From positions 1-21,219 of the IMG/VR virus record IMGVR_UViG_3300042881_001899: a stretch of 21,219 nt of DNA; one strand, written 5' to 3'. Made by a program: the position numbers and the translations under genes. Position 1 is the stretch's first letter. Each line of letters starts with the position of its first letter. The DNA comes from a virus. The notes below the pieces were generated by a model. It was not told the DNA's origin, ran no database searches, and was given only the letters and a program-made list of their open reading frames with translations. This document shows positions 1,635-15,077 of the stretch, one piece after another.

Positions 1635-2066
1635 ATGAATTGGACATATAAAGGTAAAGAAGTCACAGAAATACCAGAAGAGATCGAAGGCTTTGTATAT
1701 CTTATTACCAATCTACTCAATAACAAAAAATACGTAGGCAAAAAACTAGCACGTTTTAAAACCACCAAACCACCGCTTAAAGGCAAAAAGAACAAACGCA
1801 GAGGCTACAAAGAAAGCGATTGGCGAGACTATTGGGGATCGTCGGACAGGCTAAACGAAGATGTAGCAGCACTAGGCACTGATAAATTCACAAGAGAAGT
1901 ACTTTACTTTTGCAAAAGCAGAGCAGAAATGAGCTACATAGAGGCAAGAGAACAGTTCGAACGTAGAGTTTTAGAAACAGATGAGTATTATAACGGTATC
2001 ATCAACGTTCGTGTAGGCGGATCAGACAAACTGCGTCAGGCTCTTTTAGAACAACAGGCAAAATAA
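1635..2066 (+). CDS. GIY-YIG nuclease-like protein, 143 aa
   Basis: Probable small endonuclease of the GIY-YIG superfamily. The core motif appears as VYL (residues 21-23) and YVG (33-35), eleven residues apart as expected. A lysine/arginine-rich stretch follows, then WRDYWGSSDRL (a W-YWGSS signature seen in phage members). A later helix, around residues 96-108 with EAREQFE, may supply the metal-binding glutamate. There is no obvious extra DNA-binding domain, so it could be a free-standing homing endonuclease or a resident phage nuclease. ATG at 1635 is used because the ATG at 1631 opens only a six-codon frame. The gene ends just before a 560-bp gene-free, hairpin-rich stretch. Confidence 0.75.
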   Translation: MNWTYKGKEVTEIPEEIEGFVYLITNLLNNKKYVGKKLARFKTTKPPLKGKKNKRRGYKESDWRDYWGSSDRLNEDVAALGTDKFTREVLYFCKSRAEMSYIEAREQFERRVLETDEYYNGIINVRVGGSDKLRQALLEQQAK

Positions 2067-2626: not shown

Positions 2627-3151
2627 ATGAAAATACATCAGATAATCTCAGAAACAGAATTAAATGAAAAACCTATGGGCATGTTACAACGTGCTGTAGC
2701 AGGTGTAGCAAGTAAATTTGGTAGTAGTGCAGCTAAGGCAAATCTTGATGTAAATAAAGATGTTATTACAATGAAGAAAGATCTTGCTGGTTGGATGGCA
2801 GGCAGTGGTATTGCCAAAGGAACATTGAGTGTTGAAGATTTTATTGATTTCTTAGGAAAAAAAGGTCTTCCTACTGACTTTGTTAATAGTAGTATGCAAG
2901 CAATACGTCGACAAAGCGGTACTCCTGATGAGTCTCCGTTGACCAATCCTGAAGTTGACGAACTATTAAAGAAAGCATCGCAAGCTGGATTTAAATCTCA
3001 AGGTTCTACAGGTGCAAAAAGTCGTTATGCTGCTAAGACTCCGACACCTGCTGACAATCCACCTGCACAAGGACAAGGCGCTCCTGACATAACTAATTTT
3101 GTTAACAGTTTAACACCTCAACAAAAAGCAAAACTTAAAGCATCACTATAA
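2627..3151 (+). CDS. hypothetical protein with capsid-targeting-like N-terminus, 174 aa
   Basis: I do not recognise the whole protein. The first residues, MKIHQIISETELNE, resemble the short N-terminal capsid-targeting propeptides of T4 internal head proteins (for example MKTYQEFIAE). They contain two (I/L)-x-E sites, ISE (7-9) and LNE (12-14), that a gp21-type protease could cut. Next comes a mostly helical, small-residue-rich domain (about 18-110), then a low-complexity Pro/Thr/Ala/Gln linker (about 125-150), and a short C-terminal helix ending LTPQQKAKLKASL. No membrane segment or enzyme motif is visible. A late-promoter-like motif and AAGGA precede it and a terminator follows directly. An internal capsid protein is an inference; a tail or neck part is also possible. 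Confidence 0.8.
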   Translation: MKIHQIISETELNEKPMGMLQRAVAGVASKFGSSAAKANLDVNKDVITMKKDLAGWMAGSGIAKGTLSVEDFIDFLGKKGLPTDFVNSSMQAIRRQSGTPDESPLTNPEVDELLKKASQAGFKSQGSTGAKSRYAAKTPTPADNPPAQGQGAPDITNFVNSLTPQQKAKLKASL

Positions 3152-3157
3152 AAATAA

Positions 3158-3195
3158 AACAAACCTGCTTAGAAATACGGCAGGTTTGTTTTTTT
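3158..3195. terminator. bidirectional intrinsic terminator between convergent genes
   Basis: Stem AACAAACCTGC (3158-3168)/GCAGGTTTGTT (3180-3190) with an 11-nt loop, followed on the plus strand by T through 3195. On the minus strand the same stem is followed by a T-rich run (TTTTATTTTTAT). It ends the rightward gene stopping at 3151 and the leftward reading frame, whose stop codon (3169-3171) lies in the loop. Confidence 0.9.
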
Positions 3196-3399
3196 AGCTA
3201 CTTCATGATTTTCTTTTATTAAATTAGCTATGATTTCTTGATCTTCGGGTGACAACTCATACGCCTCTGACAACGAAACGCTTCCTCTCATGCTCCAACA
3301 AATTTTAAACAAGTTATGTTTTAGCTGTTTTGTTTCGTTATCTAGGATCTCAACTTCTTGTAAGATCTTTTCAACTGACCAAGTTGAGATCCTTATGCG
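3169..3399 (-). CDS. -1 frame extension of the gp26-like chaperone (gp51/GT-type C-terminal segment, 76 codons, no start codon)
   Basis: This minus-strand frame runs from a TGA just upstream of the slippery site to TAA at 3169-3171. It encodes a well-behaved small domain beginning RIRISTWSVEKIL, then a helix, CWSMRGSVSLSEAYELSPED and IIANLIKENHEVAKK. The W-x-MRG...SLSEA...LSPED pattern resembles T-type segments of tail tape-measure chaperones and, from memory, the small hub-assembly protein called gp51 in marine T4-like phages. It has no ATG, GTG or TTG before residue 30 of the domain, and the only codon overlapping the gp26 stop is ATA. Reading it by -1 slippage at T TTT TTC gives a 361-aa fusion (285 gp26-like residues plus 76). 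The frame looks real; the exact family name is less sure. Confidence 0.8.
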   Translation of the reverse strand, partial: RIRISTWSVEKILQEVEILDNETKQLKHNLFKICWSMRGSVSLSEAYELSPEDQEIIANLIKENHEVAKKTNLPYF

Positions 3400-3405
3400 A
3401 AAAAA
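3344..3405 (-). promoter_or_regulatory. programmed -1 ribosomal frameshift signal (slippery heptamer, spacer, 13-bp stem-loop)
   Basis: Read on the minus strand, the last codons of the gp26-like gene are GAT TTT TTC GCA TAA. T TTT TTC (3405-3399) is a canonical X XXY YYZ heptamer in the correct frame. After a 5-nt spacer (GCATA, 3398-3394) comes a perfect 13-bp stem, AGGATCTCAACTT (3393-3381)/AAGTTGAGATCCT (3356-3344), with a 24-nt loop. A -1 slip continues CGC ATA AGG ATC and so on, straight into the frame that lacks a start codon. All three parts of a standard frameshift site are present with standard spacing. Confidence 0.88.
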
Positions 3406-4253
3406 TCAGAACGATCAAAAATAATAGGCAGCATGAATTCTTCTGGAGCACCTGCTGCACGTTCTTCTTCGCCAGTTACAACTTTCAAAGATTTTATTTT
3501 AAACTTTTTTCTTTGTTCTTCGATGTGATCCAGCACAGCTTTGTACAAGTCTTTGTCAGCGTTGTCAAAAAATTCTGCTATATGTGTCGGATCAGTTACA
3601 GGATCTTCATCTTGATATTGAATAGCAACTACACTTCGTGCCATTAATCCTATGTTCAAGTCAGTTAATCTAGTAAAACTTTCATTGAAGCGTTGTATTT
3701 TTTCAACTTCGGACATGTTGTCGTCGTCTAGTAGCTTTAATATTCGTTGCTCTTCAAAGGTTTTCATTGCACTGTCAGTGAAATTTTTATAATTTGTAGG
3801 TGCAATTTCAAATTTCCAATCACGGTAGGACACTATGTTTTCATATTCATTTGATGAAATTTGATCCAACAGTATTCTTAGGTCAACGTCATACGAGCGT
3901 TCAATGTCTGTGTTGGGCAGTGTGGTGGTAATGGACATCTTCTCACCATAGGTTGCAATTCTTATAGCGATTAAGATATAATCTACGTCGATGCTGGGTA
4001 CGTTCCACGCATTTTTAATATTAGGAATACAACTTTGTATTACATCAACAGTTGATTGCCCGTTTAACAGTGCATCGGGTGTTTTAAAACGCAATTCATC
4101 CTTGGCAGTCATGGCCAACACAGGGATTTCTCCCGTTTCCGTTGTTTCAAACGAGCCTTTGGGATAAAAATATCCTTTACTAGGCAATGTAACATATAGT
4201 TTAGGTTGTCTAAAATGCTTTGCTAACGGATTGCTAGATGCGGACAGGTTCAT
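3393..4253 (-). CDS. 26: gp26-like baseplate hub/tape-measure chaperone, 286 aa
   Basis: Resembles the T4 gp26-type baseplate family, best recognised from the N-terminal block FRQPKLYVTLPSKGYFYPKG (residues 14-33), followed by LAMTAKDELRFKTPDALLNG. T4 gp26 is needed for baseplate hub assembly but is not thought to stay in the virion. By position it corresponds to the tape-measure chaperones of other tailed phages. The C-terminal half is helical and charged. The start is ATG at 4253-4251, with GGAG nine bases upstream. It is transcribed leftward, divergent from the tape-measure gene, unlike most genes in the window. Its last codons carry a frameshift signal that would also give a longer fusion product. 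T4 gp26 is somewhat shorter (about 208 aa). Confidence 0.78.
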   Translation of the reverse strand: MNLSASSNPLAKHFRQPKLYVTLPSKGYFYPKGSFETTETGEIPVLAMTAKDELRFKTPDALLNGQSTVDVIQSCIPNIKNAWNVPSIDVDYILIAIRIATYGEKMSITTTLPNTDIERSYDVDLRILLDQISSNEYENIVSYRDWKFEIAPTNYKNFTDSAMKTFEEQRILKLLDDDNMSEVEKIQRFNESFTRLTDLNIGLMARSVVAIQYQDEDPVTDPTHIAEFFDNADKDLYKAVLDHIEEQRKKFKIKSLKVVTGEEERAAGAPEEFMLPIIFDRSDFFA

Positions 4254-4328: not shown

Positions 4329-6866
4329 ATGGTAGATGAAGTAGAAATTTCCAATGTAGGCGGTCCGAAAGGTGTTGCCAGTGAAGCTACGCTTGCAGCA
4401 TTGGTTTCCGCATTAAGCAAAGGTGATACTGCTAGAGATCGCGGACTGCGACTGGAAGGTCTAGCTAGAGCTTCAAACATAAAAGAATTAAAAACTGGAA
4501 CAAAAGAGCAGGGTGCTTTTGGAAAAGCTATATCTGGTACTGCAAGTGCTGCTGTAGGCTTAGGAAAAGAATTCCTGTTTGGCGGCAATAGACTTTCGGA
4601 CTTTAGCAGAGCAGTGTTCGGCGCTGACAGTGCTATTACCAGTCTTGTTAAGTACACTGACAACTTAATTGATACCTACAGAGAACTGAGTTCAGTAGGT
4701 GCTGGGTTTAACAACAGTTTGTTTGATTTTATTAAAACTAGTGCAATGACCGGTATGAGTTTAGGAGATTTTAGTGATCTTGTATCTCAGAACAGTACAA
4801 GACTACGAATGTTAGGTGGCACTGTTACTGAAGGTGCTAAACGATTTGGACAAATCAGTAAAACACTAAGACAAGATTTTGGAATTGGCCTAAGTAGAGT
4901 TGGGTTTACTATGACTGACTTGAATGATGTGTTGCTAGAATACTCTGATTTTTCTATTAGTCAAGTAGGAAGAGAAACTAGATCTAATCGTCAACTAGCA
5001 GCGGCCGCTGCTAGTTACGGAATGGAACTTGATCAGCTTTCTAAGTTAACAGGAATAAGCAGAAAGCAACTTGCTGAAACAATTACTCAACAACAAGCTG
5101 ATCAACGAGTTAGACTTGCTACAATCGCAATGGACGAAGATCAAAGAAAACGATTTAACCAAACATTGGCTGTAGCAGGATCTGCTAGTCCGGAGTTGAA
5201 AGAAGCACTAATTGATTTAGCTGACGGTATTCCAGATGATGAAATAACAAAGAAGCTAATAACGTCAAGTGATGCATTTGCAGCATTAGGCGGCGACATT
5301 GAAAACATGTCTACTCAGGAAATGATGAAGTTCTTTGCAAGTGTCGGTAAAGACATTGATATGTTTTCAAACAGACCCGGTTTCCAACAGTTAATAAAAA
5401 ATGACGGTGCGTTTGCAAGTATTGCAAGCATGGGAGCAGGACTACGTAGTTATTCAGACTTGACTCAAGAACAAATAGACAGAATGGTAAAAGAACAAGA
5501 TGCAAGAGACACAATCACCGAAACATTAGTTGCATTTGAAAATGCGTTAAACAACGTAAAAACATTTTTAATGGACGAGCTGTTTGGAGAAAATGCACCA
5601 TTTGGAAGATCCTTAAAAGCATTTAGTGAATCAATTACAAAACTAGTTAATTCTTTATTTGGTGAATCAGGAACAGGTGGCACCGCAGGAGGTCTAACAT
5701 CAGGATTTCAAGGAATTATCGATTCTTTATTTGGAGAGAATGGCATACTTACACTTTTAGTAAAGGATTTTACAACTTTTACAAATGAACTAGCACTAAG
5801 TGATGATCCTATGGGACTATTTAAAACAAAAGTTGGCGAACTAGGAACTAGCATAAAAAATTGGTTCATGGATATGCTGCTCGGAACAAAAGTAGAAATA
5901 GGAACTCAGGGCAGGCCGGGCGAGGTACGTATAGAAAGACAAGGTGGATTACTACAATCTATATCAGATGGATTTTCCAGTTTGTTTAATGAAGGGTCGA
6001 TATTAACAACTATAAAAGAATCTATATCCAGTGCGTTTGTTGCTGCAATAGAAGGTATCGGTAATTTCTGGAATGATCCTGCTAACCAAACGGTAATTAA
6101 CAATTTCTTTACAGACATGACAGATATGTTTACTAGATTAATTAATGTAATACAAGATATGTTTGTTAATAGTTCGTTAGCAGCTTTCTTAGGAATAACT
6201 GACCGAGAAGATGTTACAGCAAGACAAGCAGATGCAGCTATAGCTGCAAGAAATTCCGGAGGCCCTGTTACAAAAATAGATGCCGAAAATGCACTTAATG
6301 CTATCTTAGGTAAAGATTGGTTTAACGTTTCTACAATAGGATTAGTAGGCGGTAGTCAGGATAAAGTCGATCCTGCCATAATAACAGAACTATTAAAACA
6401 AGTTAATACAGATGAATATTGGTTTGAAGGAAGTGCAATTAAAGATGCATTACAACAGTTAGGCGACAAATATACTGCCGGAAATGCATCAGAAGAAGAA
6501 CAACGGTTATTTGAGCAAGCTGCTTCGGCATTTGTTAAAGCAGAAGCACAAATGGATCAACAACCTGTTGGTGCTATACCACCTGAACAAAAATCAATTG
6601 GAACTCTAGGAACAACTGGACTCAAGTTTGAACCCAAGGACACTGTTGCTCAAATTCACAGAGGAGAACGTGTGTTAAGTCCTGAAGAAACTGCAAAATA
6701 CAATAGCACAGGCAATCAGACTATGTCAAACGAAAAGCTAGATCAGTTAAATAATACTATGATGAGAGTGGCAGGATTGCTTGATTCTGCACTAGGAGTT
6801 CAAACAAGAACAATGAAAAATGTTAAATCGCTAGGATTTGATTATTATAGAGGATCACCAGCATGA
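4329..6866 (+). CDS. 29: tail tape-measure protein (gp29-like), 845 aa
   Basis: Long, mostly helical protein that would set tail length inside the tube and sit in the baseplate hub. The evidence is its length, low cysteine content, alanine/glycine-rich amphipathic helices (about 55-80), and many amphipathic LF/FGEN-type repeats in the middle (LFGENAPFG, SLFGESG, SLFGENG). A C-terminal motif VAQIHRGERVLSPEE near residues 772-786 is typical of phage tape measures. The gene is divergent from the gp26-like chaperone and overlaps the portal start by four bases (ATGA at 6863). T4 gp29 is 590 aa. If tail length scales at about 0.15 nm per residue, this one suggests a somewhat longer tail, but internal domains may not count. 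The ribosome binding site is weak (AGG at 4319-4321). Confidence 0.85.
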   Translation: MVDEVEISNVGGPKGVASEATLAALVSALSKGDTARDRGLRLEGLARASNIKELKTGTKEQGAFGKAISGTASAAVGLGKEFLFGGNRLSDFSRAVFGADSAITSLVKYTDNLIDTYRELSSVGAGFNNSLFDFIKTSAMTGMSLGDFSDLVSQNSTRLRMLGGTVTEGAKRFGQISKTLRQDFGIGLSRVGFTMTDLNDVLLEYSDFSISQVGRETRSNRQLAAAAASYGMELDQLSKLTGISRKQLAETITQQQADQRVRLATIAMDEDQRKRFNQTLAVAGSASPELKEALIDLADGIPDDEITKKLITSSDAFAALGGDIENMSTQEMMKFFASVGKDIDMFSNRPGFQQLIKNDGAFASIASMGAGLRSYSDLTQEQIDRMVKEQDARDTITETLVAFENALNNVKTFLMDELFGENAPFGRSLKAFSESITKLVNSLFGESGTGGTAGGLTSGFQGIIDSLFGENGILTLLVKDFTTFTNELALSDDPMGLFKTKVGELGTSIKNWFMDMLLGTKVEIGTQGRPGEVRIERQGGLLQSISDGFSSLFNEGSILTTIKESISSAFVAAIEGIGNFWNDPANQTVINNFFTDMTDMFTRLINVIQDMFVNSSLAAFLGITDREDVTARQADAAIAARNSGGPVTKIDAENALNAILGKDWFNVSTIGLVGGSQDKVDPAIITELLKQVNTDEYWFEGSAIKDALQQLGDKYTAGNASEEEQRLFEQAASAFVKAEAQMDQQPVGAIPPEQKSIGTLGTTGLKFEPKDTVAQIHRGERVLSPEETAKYNSTGNQTMSNEKLDQLNNTMMRVAGLLDSALGVQTRTMKNVKSLGFDYYRGSPA

Positions 6867-11217: not shown

Positions 11218-12309
11218 ATGGAAGCACTAAAAGCCCTTTTAGAGAGTGAAGCAATTACTGAAGCAATGAAAACCGAGATACAAGAAGCATGGACAGCAAA
11301 AATTGCTGAAAATCGCAGACAAGTAACTGTCGAACTTCGTGAGGAATTTGCACAAAAGTACGAGCATGACAAAAGTGTTATGATCGAAGCTATTGATTCT
11401 ATGATTAGCGAAAAGCTAGTAGAAGAAGTAACCGAATTCCAAGAAGATCGTAAGCAACTAGCAGAAGCAAAAGCAAAATATGCAATAGCTATGAAAGAAA
11501 ATGCAAATCTACTAAAAAGATTTGTAAGTGAAACTTTAGTTAAAGAAGTTTCCGAACTTCATGAAGACCAAAAGTCTATGGCATCAAAGTTTTCTGCTCT
11601 TGAAGAATTTGTAATCGAACAACTTGCAAAAGAAATTGCCGAGTTCCAGGAAGATAAACAAGATCTAGCTGAAACAAAAGTACGTCTAGTACGTGAAGCA
11701 AAAGATCACATTGCTAAGGTCAGAGCTGACTTTATCAGTAGAAGTGCAAAGTTAGTATCAGAAACAGTTAACAAAACTCTTAAAAAAGAAATTAGTCAAC
11801 TCAAAGAAGATATCGATACTGCACGTCAACACGACTTCGGTCGTAAACTATTCGAAGCATTTGCTTCAGAATATTTAAATTCGCATCTAAATGAAAAGTC
11901 TGAAACAAAGAAACTGTTAAAAGTACTTGAGTTAAAGGACAAGCAAATAGCAGAAGCAAAAGTGATTGCAAGAAAAGCAACACAAATTGCTGAATCAAAA
12001 GATGTAGAAGTAAAGCGTTTAGTTGAATCAGCTGAACGTCAAAAAGTACTAAACGAGTTGACTGCACCGTTAGGTAAAGATCAACAAAGTATTATGATGG
12101 ACTTACTGGAATCAGTACAAACTCCTAAGTTACGTTCGGCGTTTGACAAGTACCTACCTTCCGTAGTTGAAGGTAAATCTCCAGCAAAGCAGAAGGCAGT
12201 TTTAAAAGAAGGCACAGAAATAACAGGCAACCGTACACAAAATAATAATAGTAACGCAGACGTAGATAGCAACGTAGTTGATATTAAGCGTCTTGCCGGA
12301 ATTAAATAA
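11218..12309 (+). CDS. 22: prohead scaffold protein gp22, 363 aa
   Basis: Major scaffolding protein of the prohead core, expected to be digested by gp21. Almost entirely charged and helical, with Lys/Glu-rich coiled coil through residues 60-290 and a conserved-looking C-terminal block PLGKDQQSIMMDLLESVQT and LRSAFDKYLPSVVEG before a low-complexity Asn-rich tail. Four related segments recur around residues 66-83, 106-123, 135-152 and 187-200, with the pattern L-(V/A/K)-(E/K)-E-(V/I)-x-E-F-Q-E-D. AGGAG lies upstream of the ATG. It sits 12 bases after gp21 and 10 before gp23, exactly as in T4. T4 gp22 is about 269 aa, so this one is longer. Confidence 0.9.
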   Translation: MEALKALLESEAITEAMKTEIQEAWTAKIAENRRQVTVELREEFAQKYEHDKSVMIEAIDSMISEKLVEEVTEFQEDRKQLAEAKAKYAIAMKENANLLKRFVSETLVKEVSELHEDQKSMASKFSALEEFVIEQLAKEIAEFQEDKQDLAETKVRLVREAKDHIAKVRADFISRSAKLVSETVNKTLKKEISQLKEDIDTARQHDFGRKLFEAFASEYLNSHLNEKSETKKLLKVLELKDKQIAEAKVIARKATQIAESKDVEVKRLVESAERQKVLNELTAPLGKDQQSIMMDLLESVQTPKLRSAFDKYLPSVVEGKSPAKQKAVLKEGTEITGNRTQNNNSNADVDSNVVDIKRLAGIK

Positions 12310-12319
12310 GGAGATTAAA

Positions 12320-13480
12320 ATGTCAGAACTATTAGAAAGTCGCTGGCAGGAGACAAAAGGTGCGCTTCTCGAAGGCCTAAACGGTAACAAGAAATCCGTT
12401 ATGGCAACAACGCTAGAAAATACTCGTAGATATCTAGCTGAATCTGCAACTTCCGGTGCTTCTGCTGCTGGTAATATCGCAACCCTAAACCGTGTAATTC
12501 TTCCAGTAATTAGACGTGTTATGCCAACAGTTATCGCAAACGAACTTGTTGGTGTTCAACCAATGACTGGTCCAGTTGGCCAAATTCACACTCTACGTGT
12601 GCGTTATGCTGACGGCAACAACGGTGCAACTGCTGGTTCAGAAGCACTAAGCCCATTCAATATTGCTGCTTCGTACTCAGGTACACCAAGCTCATCGGCT
12701 GCACCAAGTGCAACTGGTGCTCTAGAAGGTGTAGCTGGTAACAGACTAAGCATCCAAATCTTGAAGCAAACTGTCGAAGCTAAGTCACGCAAGCTATCAG
12801 CTCGCTGGACTTTCGAAGCTGCTCAAGATGCTCAGTCACAGCACGGTATTGATGTTGAAGCAGAAATCATGGCTGCTTTAGCACAAGAAATCACTGCTGA
12901 AATCGACCAAGAGATTCTTAGTAGCCTAAGTTCTCTAGCAGGCACTGCACAAACTTACGACCAAGCTGCCGTAAGTGGTACTGCTACATTCGTCGGTGAC
13001 GAACATGCTGCACTTGCAGTTCAAATCAACCGTACAAGCAACCTAATTGCACAGCGTACACGTCGTGGCGCTGGTAACTGGTGCGTTGTTTCGCCAACTG
13101 TTCTAACTGTACTACAGTCAGCAACTACTTCAGCATTTGCTCGTACAACTGAAGGTACTTTTGAAGCACCAACTAACACTAAGCTAGTAGGTACTCTAAA
13201 CAGTGCAATGAAAGTTTATGTTAACACATATGCTTCGGGTGATGACGTTCTTGTTGGTTATAAGGGCACTTCAGAGTCAGACGCAGCAGCGTTCTACTGC
13301 CCATACATTCCGCTAATGAGCAGCGGTGTTGTTCTAGACCCAACAACATTCGAACCAGTTGTTAGCTTCATGACACGTTATGGTTATGTAGAACTAACTA
13401 ACACTGCTTCGTCGCTTGGTAACGCAGCAGACTACCTAGGTAAAGTAGCAGTAACAACTGCAAACCTAAGCTTCAGCTAA
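12320..13480 (+). CDS. 23: major capsid protein gp23, compact form, 386 aa
   Basis: Forms the hexamers of the head. The start is ATG at 12320, giving MSELLESRW, the usual gp23 N-terminus, with AAGGAG before it; an in-frame ATG at 12278 inside gp22 has no ribosome binding site. Diagnostic blocks are LENTRRYLAE (32-41), GVQPMTGPVGQIHTLRVRYA (about 78-97), EAKSRKLSARWTFEAAQD (about 154-171), RTRRGAGNW and FYCPYIPL near the C-terminus. LAE at 39-41 is a plausible gp21 cleavage site. At 386 aa it is much shorter than T4 gp23 (521) and typical cyanophage versions (about 460-470). The shortening seems to fall between the TGP block and the EAKSR block and in the middle of the protein. A strong terminator follows. 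Confidence 0.96.
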   Translation: MSELLESRWQETKGALLEGLNGNKKSVMATTLENTRRYLAESATSGASAAGNIATLNRVILPVIRRVMPTVIANELVGVQPMTGPVGQIHTLRVRYADGNNGATAGSEALSPFNIAASYSGTPSSSAAPSATGALEGVAGNRLSIQILKQTVEAKSRKLSARWTFEAAQDAQSQHGIDVEAEIMAALAQEITAEIDQEILSSLSSLAGTAQTYDQAAVSGTATFVGDEHAALAVQINRTSNLIAQRTRRGAGNWCVVSPTVLTVLQSATTSAFARTTEGTFEAPTNTKLVGTLNSAMKVYVNTYASGDDVLVGYKGTSESDAAAFYCPYIPLMSSGVVLDPTTFEPVVSFMTRYGYVELTNTASSLGNAADYLGKVAVTTANLSFS

Positions 13481-14558: not shown

Positions 14559-14576
14559 TTATGTCATAGATATCTG

Positions 14577-14609
14577 CCGGATAATCCGGATTTATGCGGT
14601 ACCCACCGC
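14577..14609 (+). repeat. two perfect hairpins in the leader of the virion-protein operon
   Basis: CCGGAT-A-ATCCGG (14577-14589), then GCGGT-ACCC-ACCGC (14596-14609), between the late promoter and the GGAG ribosome binding site. They would form in the mRNA leader and may stabilise its 5' end. The first is also a near-symmetric DNA site that a protein could bind. Confidence 0.65.
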
Positions 14610-14639
14610 GTATGACCTAGAACGTCAAAGGAGAAAACA

Positions 14640-15077
14640 ATGGGACGTCCAATTAATAAAAAATATATCGGATACGGTTCAGGCCGTATTGCAGTAAGCC
14701 GCCACTACTTTACTGGTGCTTCAGAAGCTACTACAGCAGCACACATTTATAAAATAAAAGGTTCAAACCAGTTTTGGGTTCGTTTAGACTCAGACAACGC
14801 AGATCCAACTGCTGGCGAAATCATGAAACTTACAACAGCAGCAAACGGTGCAATGACTGCCGGAACTTTTAGAATTGACTGTGTAGGATCTGATTCAACA
14901 ACTTATAATGTAACTCAACTAAGAAACAGAACTGTACAGATTGAAAAGAACGGTACACCACCTGAAGGTGACGTTGCTGATAACGCTATTTGGGCTATTG
15001 GTAATACACCGGATGCTAGAGAATCAGCAAGTGTTCCTAACGCAGTACTAAGCGTAAACTTACCAGGACAAGCATAA
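14640..15077 (+). CDS. putative virion structural protein, 145 aa
   Basis: First gene after the late promoter, with AAAGGAG before the ATG. Beta-rich and low in charge, starting MGRPINKKYIGYGSGRIAVSRHYF, then alternating short strands (IYKIKGSNQFWVRLDS; MKLTTAANG; TFRIDCVGSDSTTYNVTQLRNRTVQIEKNG) and a Pro/Asn/Val-rich end. The pattern and position resemble small structural proteins of marine T4-like phages, but I cannot name the family. No signal peptide or enzyme motif. It lies in an operon with the two fibre-like genes and the giant repeat protein, so a decoration, neck or fibre-associated role is likely. That is inference from context. Confidence 0.8.
   Translation: MGRPINKKYIGYGSGRIAVSRHYFTGASEATTAAHIYKIKGSNQFWVRLDSDNADPTAGEIMKLTTAANGAMTAGTFRIDCVGSDSTTYNVTQLRNRTVQIEKNGTPPEGDVADNAIWAIGNTPDARESASVPNAVLSVNLPGQA

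Follow-up and report, generated by a model that had tools for sequence, protein, structure and literature searches.

The minus strand of a viral DNA fragment of 21,219 nucleotides (IMG/VR record IMGVR_UViG_3300042881_001899), hereafter the window, carries a gp26-like gene whose 3' end runs, in the -1 frame, into a second open reading frame (ORF) devoid of an early start codon. This arrangement raises the question of whether the locus encodes two independent proteins, or a single protein in two forms, the longer of which is produced by slippage just before the stop codon of the shorter.

Organization of the locus and identity of the gp26-like protein

Genes for the gp20 portal, a gp21-type protease and the gp23 capsid protein were all found in the window, identifying it as a fragment of a T4-supergroup phage. 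The features of the gp26-like locus are listed in Table 1. The gp26-like gene ends with TCT GAT TTT TTC GCA TAA (minus strand), and among the likely genes of the window (about 6,500 codons) an in-frame T TTT TTC occurs only at this place. In the -1 frame, a TGA immediately precedes the slip site, after which 76 codons are open, ending at position 3169; the first ATG, GTG or TTG among them is a TTG at codon 30. The predicted products are a short form of 286 aa and a -1 fusion of 361 aa. The signal described in the initial annotation, namely the in-frame heptamer, a 5-nt spacer and a perfect 13-bp stem with a 24-nt loop, is thereby confirmed on the minus strand, as is its 76-codon -1 ORF with TGA just upstream and no start before codon 30.

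Table 1. Positions of the gp26-like gene, its putative frameshift signal and the adjoining gene in the window.
Feature	Position	Strand	Evidence
gp26-like gene, short form (TAC-N), 286 aa, PF12322 / phrog_150	3393..4253	-	ORF, Pfam, PHROGs, AlphaFold
Slippery heptamer T TTT TTC	3399..3405 (read 3405-3399)	-	Sequence, invariance among relatives
5-nt spacer GCATA	3394..3398 (read 3398-3394)	-	Sequence
13-bp stem, 5' arm AGGATCTCAACTT	3381..3393 (read 3393-3381)	-	Fold z = -3.2, compensatory changes
13-bp stem, 3' arm, distal register, AAGTTGAGATCCT	3344..3356 (read 3356-3344)	-	Fold, pairing analysis
Alternative proximal 3' arm, 7/8 pairs with the same 5' arm	3362..3369	-	Pairing analysis
-1 frame extension, 76 codons + stop, putative C-terminal domain of TAC-NC	3169..3399	-	Coding constraint, hhalign
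Divergent neighbor, 845 aa, candidate tape measure protein	4329..6866	+	Position beside the portal gene

The short form is a member of the T4 gp26/gp51 family (PF12322). It matches the Pfam model T4_baseplate with an E-value of 1e-6 and 29.1 bits (curated cut-off 24.5) and the PHROGs family phrog_150 at 2e-12. A comparison of its AlphaFold model (pLDDT 85) with BFVD gave matches to baseplate hub assembly proteins, with E-values down to 1e-22, and Foldseek searches gave T4-like gp26 proteins. For a T4-like gp51, the predicted fold hits a set of baseplate hub assembly proteins that overlaps with the set hit by the window protein. A search of the PDB for relatives of the short form, by sequence and by fold, found none. 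The corresponding fusions of jumbo phages, which are the named relatives of the gp26-like protein, match T4 gp26 in profile comparison (95.6%, E 1e-8).

Several other elements of the window were observed. An inverted repeat with T runs, aaacaaacctgct ... gcaggtttgtttttt (3157-3196), is located between the end of the -1 ORF and a convergent gene (2627-3151), and looks like a bidirectional terminator shared by the two. A SegE-like GIY-YIG endonuclease (PF19835, 2e-33) is encoded at 1635-2066 (+); the region 3' of it (2067-2626) is apparently non-coding and has no match in Rfam. A freshwater-2 RNA (RF02980, 54.3 bits, over the gathering score) was predicted at 14575-14642 (+), downstream of the capsid region and directly 5' of an ORF of 145 aa (14640-15077). 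The gp23 capsid ORF as listed (12278-13480, +) has a TTG start inside the preceding gene, and an internal ATG (MSELLES) is more likely to be its start.

The slip site and the -1 frame

A scan of IMG/VR yielded 80 relatives of the gp26-like protein of the window, and T TTT TTC is retained in every one whose sequence reaches the gene end. All 44 distinct coding sequences of the family, with a mean amino acid identity of 54% (minimum 42%), have the identical heptamer, and TTTTTTCG is the only invariant run of at least 5 nt in the gene. An invariant third base was found only in the three slip-site codons among 281 well-occupied columns. The heptamer is likewise invariant in 63/63 distinct coding sequences of cyanophages, in which the remaining invariant third bases belong to Met and Trp codons. 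Among jumbo phages, T TTT TTC is present at the end of the gp26-like gene in Phosso, Atu_ph07, PA5oct, 121Q, RaK2, CBB, Vibrio 2.275 and SCTP-2, and in all eight the -1 frame is open for 70-77 codons. It was also found in cyanophage Sf-FS3, Rhizobium phage IC12, and Aeromonas phage phiAS5 with three relatives. The gp26 homologue of Rhizobium phage RL38J1 (L096, 4962-5830) and that of one relative (L184) carry T TTT TTG, the heptamer of P2. The heptamer is absent from T4, Stupor and Cygsa01; in T4 and Stupor this fits a separate-gene strategy, and Cygsa01 has an overlapping TAATG start in its place.

The -1 extension comprises exactly 76 codons in all family members. In codons 1-18 of the -1 frame, the column entropy is 0.88 at first, 0.58 at second and 1.32 at third positions; in codons 19-29, which are the cleaner part of this test since codons 1-18 overlap the stem, it is 1.00, 0.59 and 1.48. 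Variation is thus greatest at third and smallest at second positions from the first -1 codon on, a coding signature that matches the one downstream; the frame is coding right from the slip site, before any start codon. The extension of the window is homologous to those of jumbo phages (hhalign 99.1%, E 4.5e-19), and virtual fusions from the window and jumbo phages align at E 9e-75. The direct profile match of the window to the cyanophages is weak (11%), so the link between the two runs via the jumbo phages. No convincing family was found for the window extension in Pfam or PHROGs.

Invariance of the heptamer in 44/44 sequences, coding constraint in the -1 frame and the stem described below support the proposal of the initial annotation that the gp26-like gene uses a -1 frameshift similar to that of lambda G/GT. 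Judged from these sequence features, programmed -1 ribosomal frameshifting very probably yields two proteins from one start, TAC-N (286 aa) and TAC-NC (361 aa).

The second ORF might instead be a separate gene, translated by reinitiation or from an internal start near the overlapping stop codon, with the heptamer being incidental. It is annotated in this way in several records (121Q_595, Phosso 319, CBB_249, SCTP2_87 and cyanophage gp51), the product being listed as a hypothetical protein of its own or as "baseplate hub assembly catalyst," while other records have no annotation for it. An AAGGA is present at the stop codon, and in some family members an ATG occurs at codon 2 (5/38) or codon 7 (2/38), others having an early TTG. 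The expectation that the downstream ORF would always be startless therefore does not hold, although the relatives with an early ATG still keep the heptamer. In 28 of 39 family members, however, codons 1-18 contain no ATG, GTG or TTG and are nevertheless under coding constraint; in 19/39 there is no start in codons 1-28 either. PA5oct and RaK2 have neither a start near the slip site nor an annotated second gene, and in CBB and SCTP-2 conserved residues are present upstream of the annotated start. A separate gene would also leave the invariant heptamer unexplained, and we regard this explanation as very improbable. Where an ATG is located near the slip site, as in cyanophages and in several of the jumbo phages, the frameshift products could be joined by one that is initiated separately.

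Downstream RNA structure and codon choice at the slip site

The 5' arm of the window stem begins at the final A of the stop codon. The fold calculation proposed in the initial annotation gave a minimum free energy (MFE) of -21.7 kcal/mol (z = -3.2), with one of 200 dinucleotide shuffles being equally stable. Perfect stems of 6 bp or more that begin 3-5 nt past the heptamer are present in 35 of the 38 distinct family sequences. Thus, in the alignment of relatives suggested initially, the heptamer was conserved throughout, and the stem was conserved with the exception of three members that have none (L032, L037 and L081). Family stems average 10.3 bp, compared with 6.5 bp in synonymous randomizations that keep the -1 protein, and the mean MFE z-score of the 38 sequences is -3.0.

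The stem occurs in two registers that share the 5' arm. In 22/38 sequences a distal stem is formed, with the 3' arm ending 55 nt past the heptamer, while 13/38 have the proximal stem alone, ending 37 nt past it; about a third of the family members, the window sequence included, can form both. Partners in the distal register pair at 78% in all 38 sequences, an unbiased figure, and at 95% in the 22 with the distal stem, a figure biased upwards since the register groups are defined by the pairing itself. When the partners are slid by 1-3 bases, pairing in all 38 falls to 30-52%. Compensatory double changes, for example from C-G to A-T, are found in the stem. The downstream RNA structure is thus conserved by compensatory change, in two alternative registers, and has a putative stimulatory role. 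It is conceivable, if rather unlikely, that the hairpin is a two-state element of which lineages have fixed either register, and that switching could set the ratio of TAC-N to TAC-NC. Cyanophages have their own stem of 7-12 bp around the "gp51" ATG (mean z -1.9); the stem signal of jumbo and other phages is weak (mean z -0.85).

The structure also bears on the possibility that the fusion results from slippage of RNA polymerase, rather than of the ribosome, on the run of six T. This run is present, and similar protein products would be expected. The run, however, never exceeds six in any family member, and transcriptional slippage usually requires a longer one; nor would it need a stem at fixed spacing, kept by compensatory change. 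Such an origin of the fusion appears extremely unlikely.

At the protein level F284 and F285 are invariant. The first slip-site codon encodes N, S, D or T across the family, and also H, Y or R in jumbo phages, yet its third base is always T. Elsewhere in the family genes Phe is encoded by TTT 541 times and by TTC 133 times, whereas the second slip-site Phe is always TTC; because Phe is otherwise TTT four times in five, the constant TTC is not due to codon bias. Hardly any weight can therefore be given to the idea that a Phe-Phe C-terminus is kept for the sake of the protein and that codon bias in these AT-rich genes produced the rest of the pattern. All three candidates weighed, separate initiation, transcriptional slippage and codon bias, are much less likely than -1 ribosomal frameshifting.

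The occurrence and efficiency of this frameshifting and the chaperone roles of its products are inferred from sequence, and the following course may be proposed. Most ribosomes would terminate at TAA, giving the 286-aa TAC-N, while a fraction would pause at the stem 5 nt past T TTT TTC. In these ribosomes both Phe tRNAs would re-pair one base back, from TTT TTC to TTT TTT, and the -1 frame would then be read for 76 codons to give the 361-aa TAC-NC. By analogy with gpG and gpGT of lambda, the tape measure protein may be coated by many copies of TAC-N and few of TAC-NC, whose C-terminal domain may, as in lambda, recruit tail tube subunits.

Relation to T4, lambda and P2 and to earlier work

T4 gp26 and gp51 are both members of PF12322 and are paralogues (98.7%, E 4e-16, gp51 residues 6-204, profile comparison). 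The short form of the window has a homologue in T4 gp26, while gp51 consists of the short-form domain and a C-terminal tail like the -1 tail of cyanophages: the virtual cyanophage fusion aligns with almost the whole of gp51 (98%, E 3e-13), and the -1 tail of cyanophages, taken by itself, matches residues 210-246 of gp51 (91%, E 1e-6) and does not match gp26. The match of the window -1 tail to gp51 (4%) is not significant. The paralogy, the match of the cyanophage fusion and the absence of the heptamer together indicate that T4 replaces the frameshift with two separate genes, gp26 being the short form and gp51 a permanent long form.

As in lambda gpG/gpGT, a -1 shift near the end of the short ORF would lead into a short startless ORF and produce two forms of a tail chaperone. 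The lambda heptamer is G GGA AAG, unlike T TTT TTC. Neither the sequence nor the fold of the window short form found a match in the PDB, and the window gene and the candidate tape measure gene are divergent, whereas the lambda gene is located just upstream of the tape measure gene on the same strand. The likeness to P2 E/E+E' is drawn from the heptamer only, a poly-T T TTT TTG shared with the RL38J1 gp26 gene; the P2 tail chaperone is another protein.

Vladimirov, Gautam and Davidson reportedly found in 2022 that frameshifting is conserved in several T4-like groups and that T4 uses genes 26 and 51. As described by citing papers, that study identified the tail assembly chaperone genes of T4-like phages (Vladimirov et al., 2022; Virology 566:9-15, doi 10.1016/j.virol.2021.11.003); it is cited for poly-T -1 signals in T4-like TAC-N genes (PMC12846349) and for T4-like phages with a short and a fused long gene and no frameshift (PMC10885494). 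The window shares with these T4-like TAC-N/TAC-NC systems, so described, the gp26/gp51 family PF12322 and the two-form strategy. A frameshift in gp26/gp51 genes, of which the initial annotation was not aware, is therefore not new: going by these descriptions, the principle has been known in T4-like phages since 2022, and the window is a well-supported further example. Beyond the 2022 study as the citing papers present it, the window clade, the jumbo phages, the mis-annotated second ORFs and the two-register stem may be additions.

Earlier reviews describe G-T frameshifting, with a summary of the lambda system, as widely conserved "except T4" (PMC5009743), and list gp26 and gp51 as hub assembly chaperones, the function of gp51 being given as unknown (PMC3004832, 2010). 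Cyanophage gp51 was reported to have about 20% of the usual length and to be similar only at the C-terminus, and gp51 to be missing in Aeh1 (Sullivan et al., 2010; PMC3037559); both reports fit the frameshift reading. Both the heptamer and the -1 tail are present in phiAS5 and Aeh1-like phages of Aeromonas (L093, L180-L183), which may explain the reported absence of gp51 in Aeh1.

These data suggest that a frameshifted tail chaperone is widespread, and perhaps ancestral, across a very wide range of the T4 supergroup including jumbo phages, and that the exception is T4 itself, the phage of the textbooks. The finding would also correct the many records that miss the second ORF or list it in its own right as "hypothetical protein" or "baseplate hub assembly catalyst," and the chaperone role of gp26/gp51 becomes testable in laboratory phages such as 121Q and PA5oct.

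The divergent 845-aa protein, encoded next to the portal gene, is a candidate tape measure protein. It matches no tape measure family by sequence in Pfam or PHROGs, and its match to phrog_14121 is weak (0.0012). A counterpart is located at the same position in six jumbo phage records, annotated as a structural or hypothetical protein and once as "similar to tape measure." On whether the chaperone products are part of the virion, CBB_250 is annotated as a structural protein. In PA5oct the gp26-like homologue carries no mass-spectrometry tag, while several of its neighbors are tagged, a hint that the product is absent from the virion.
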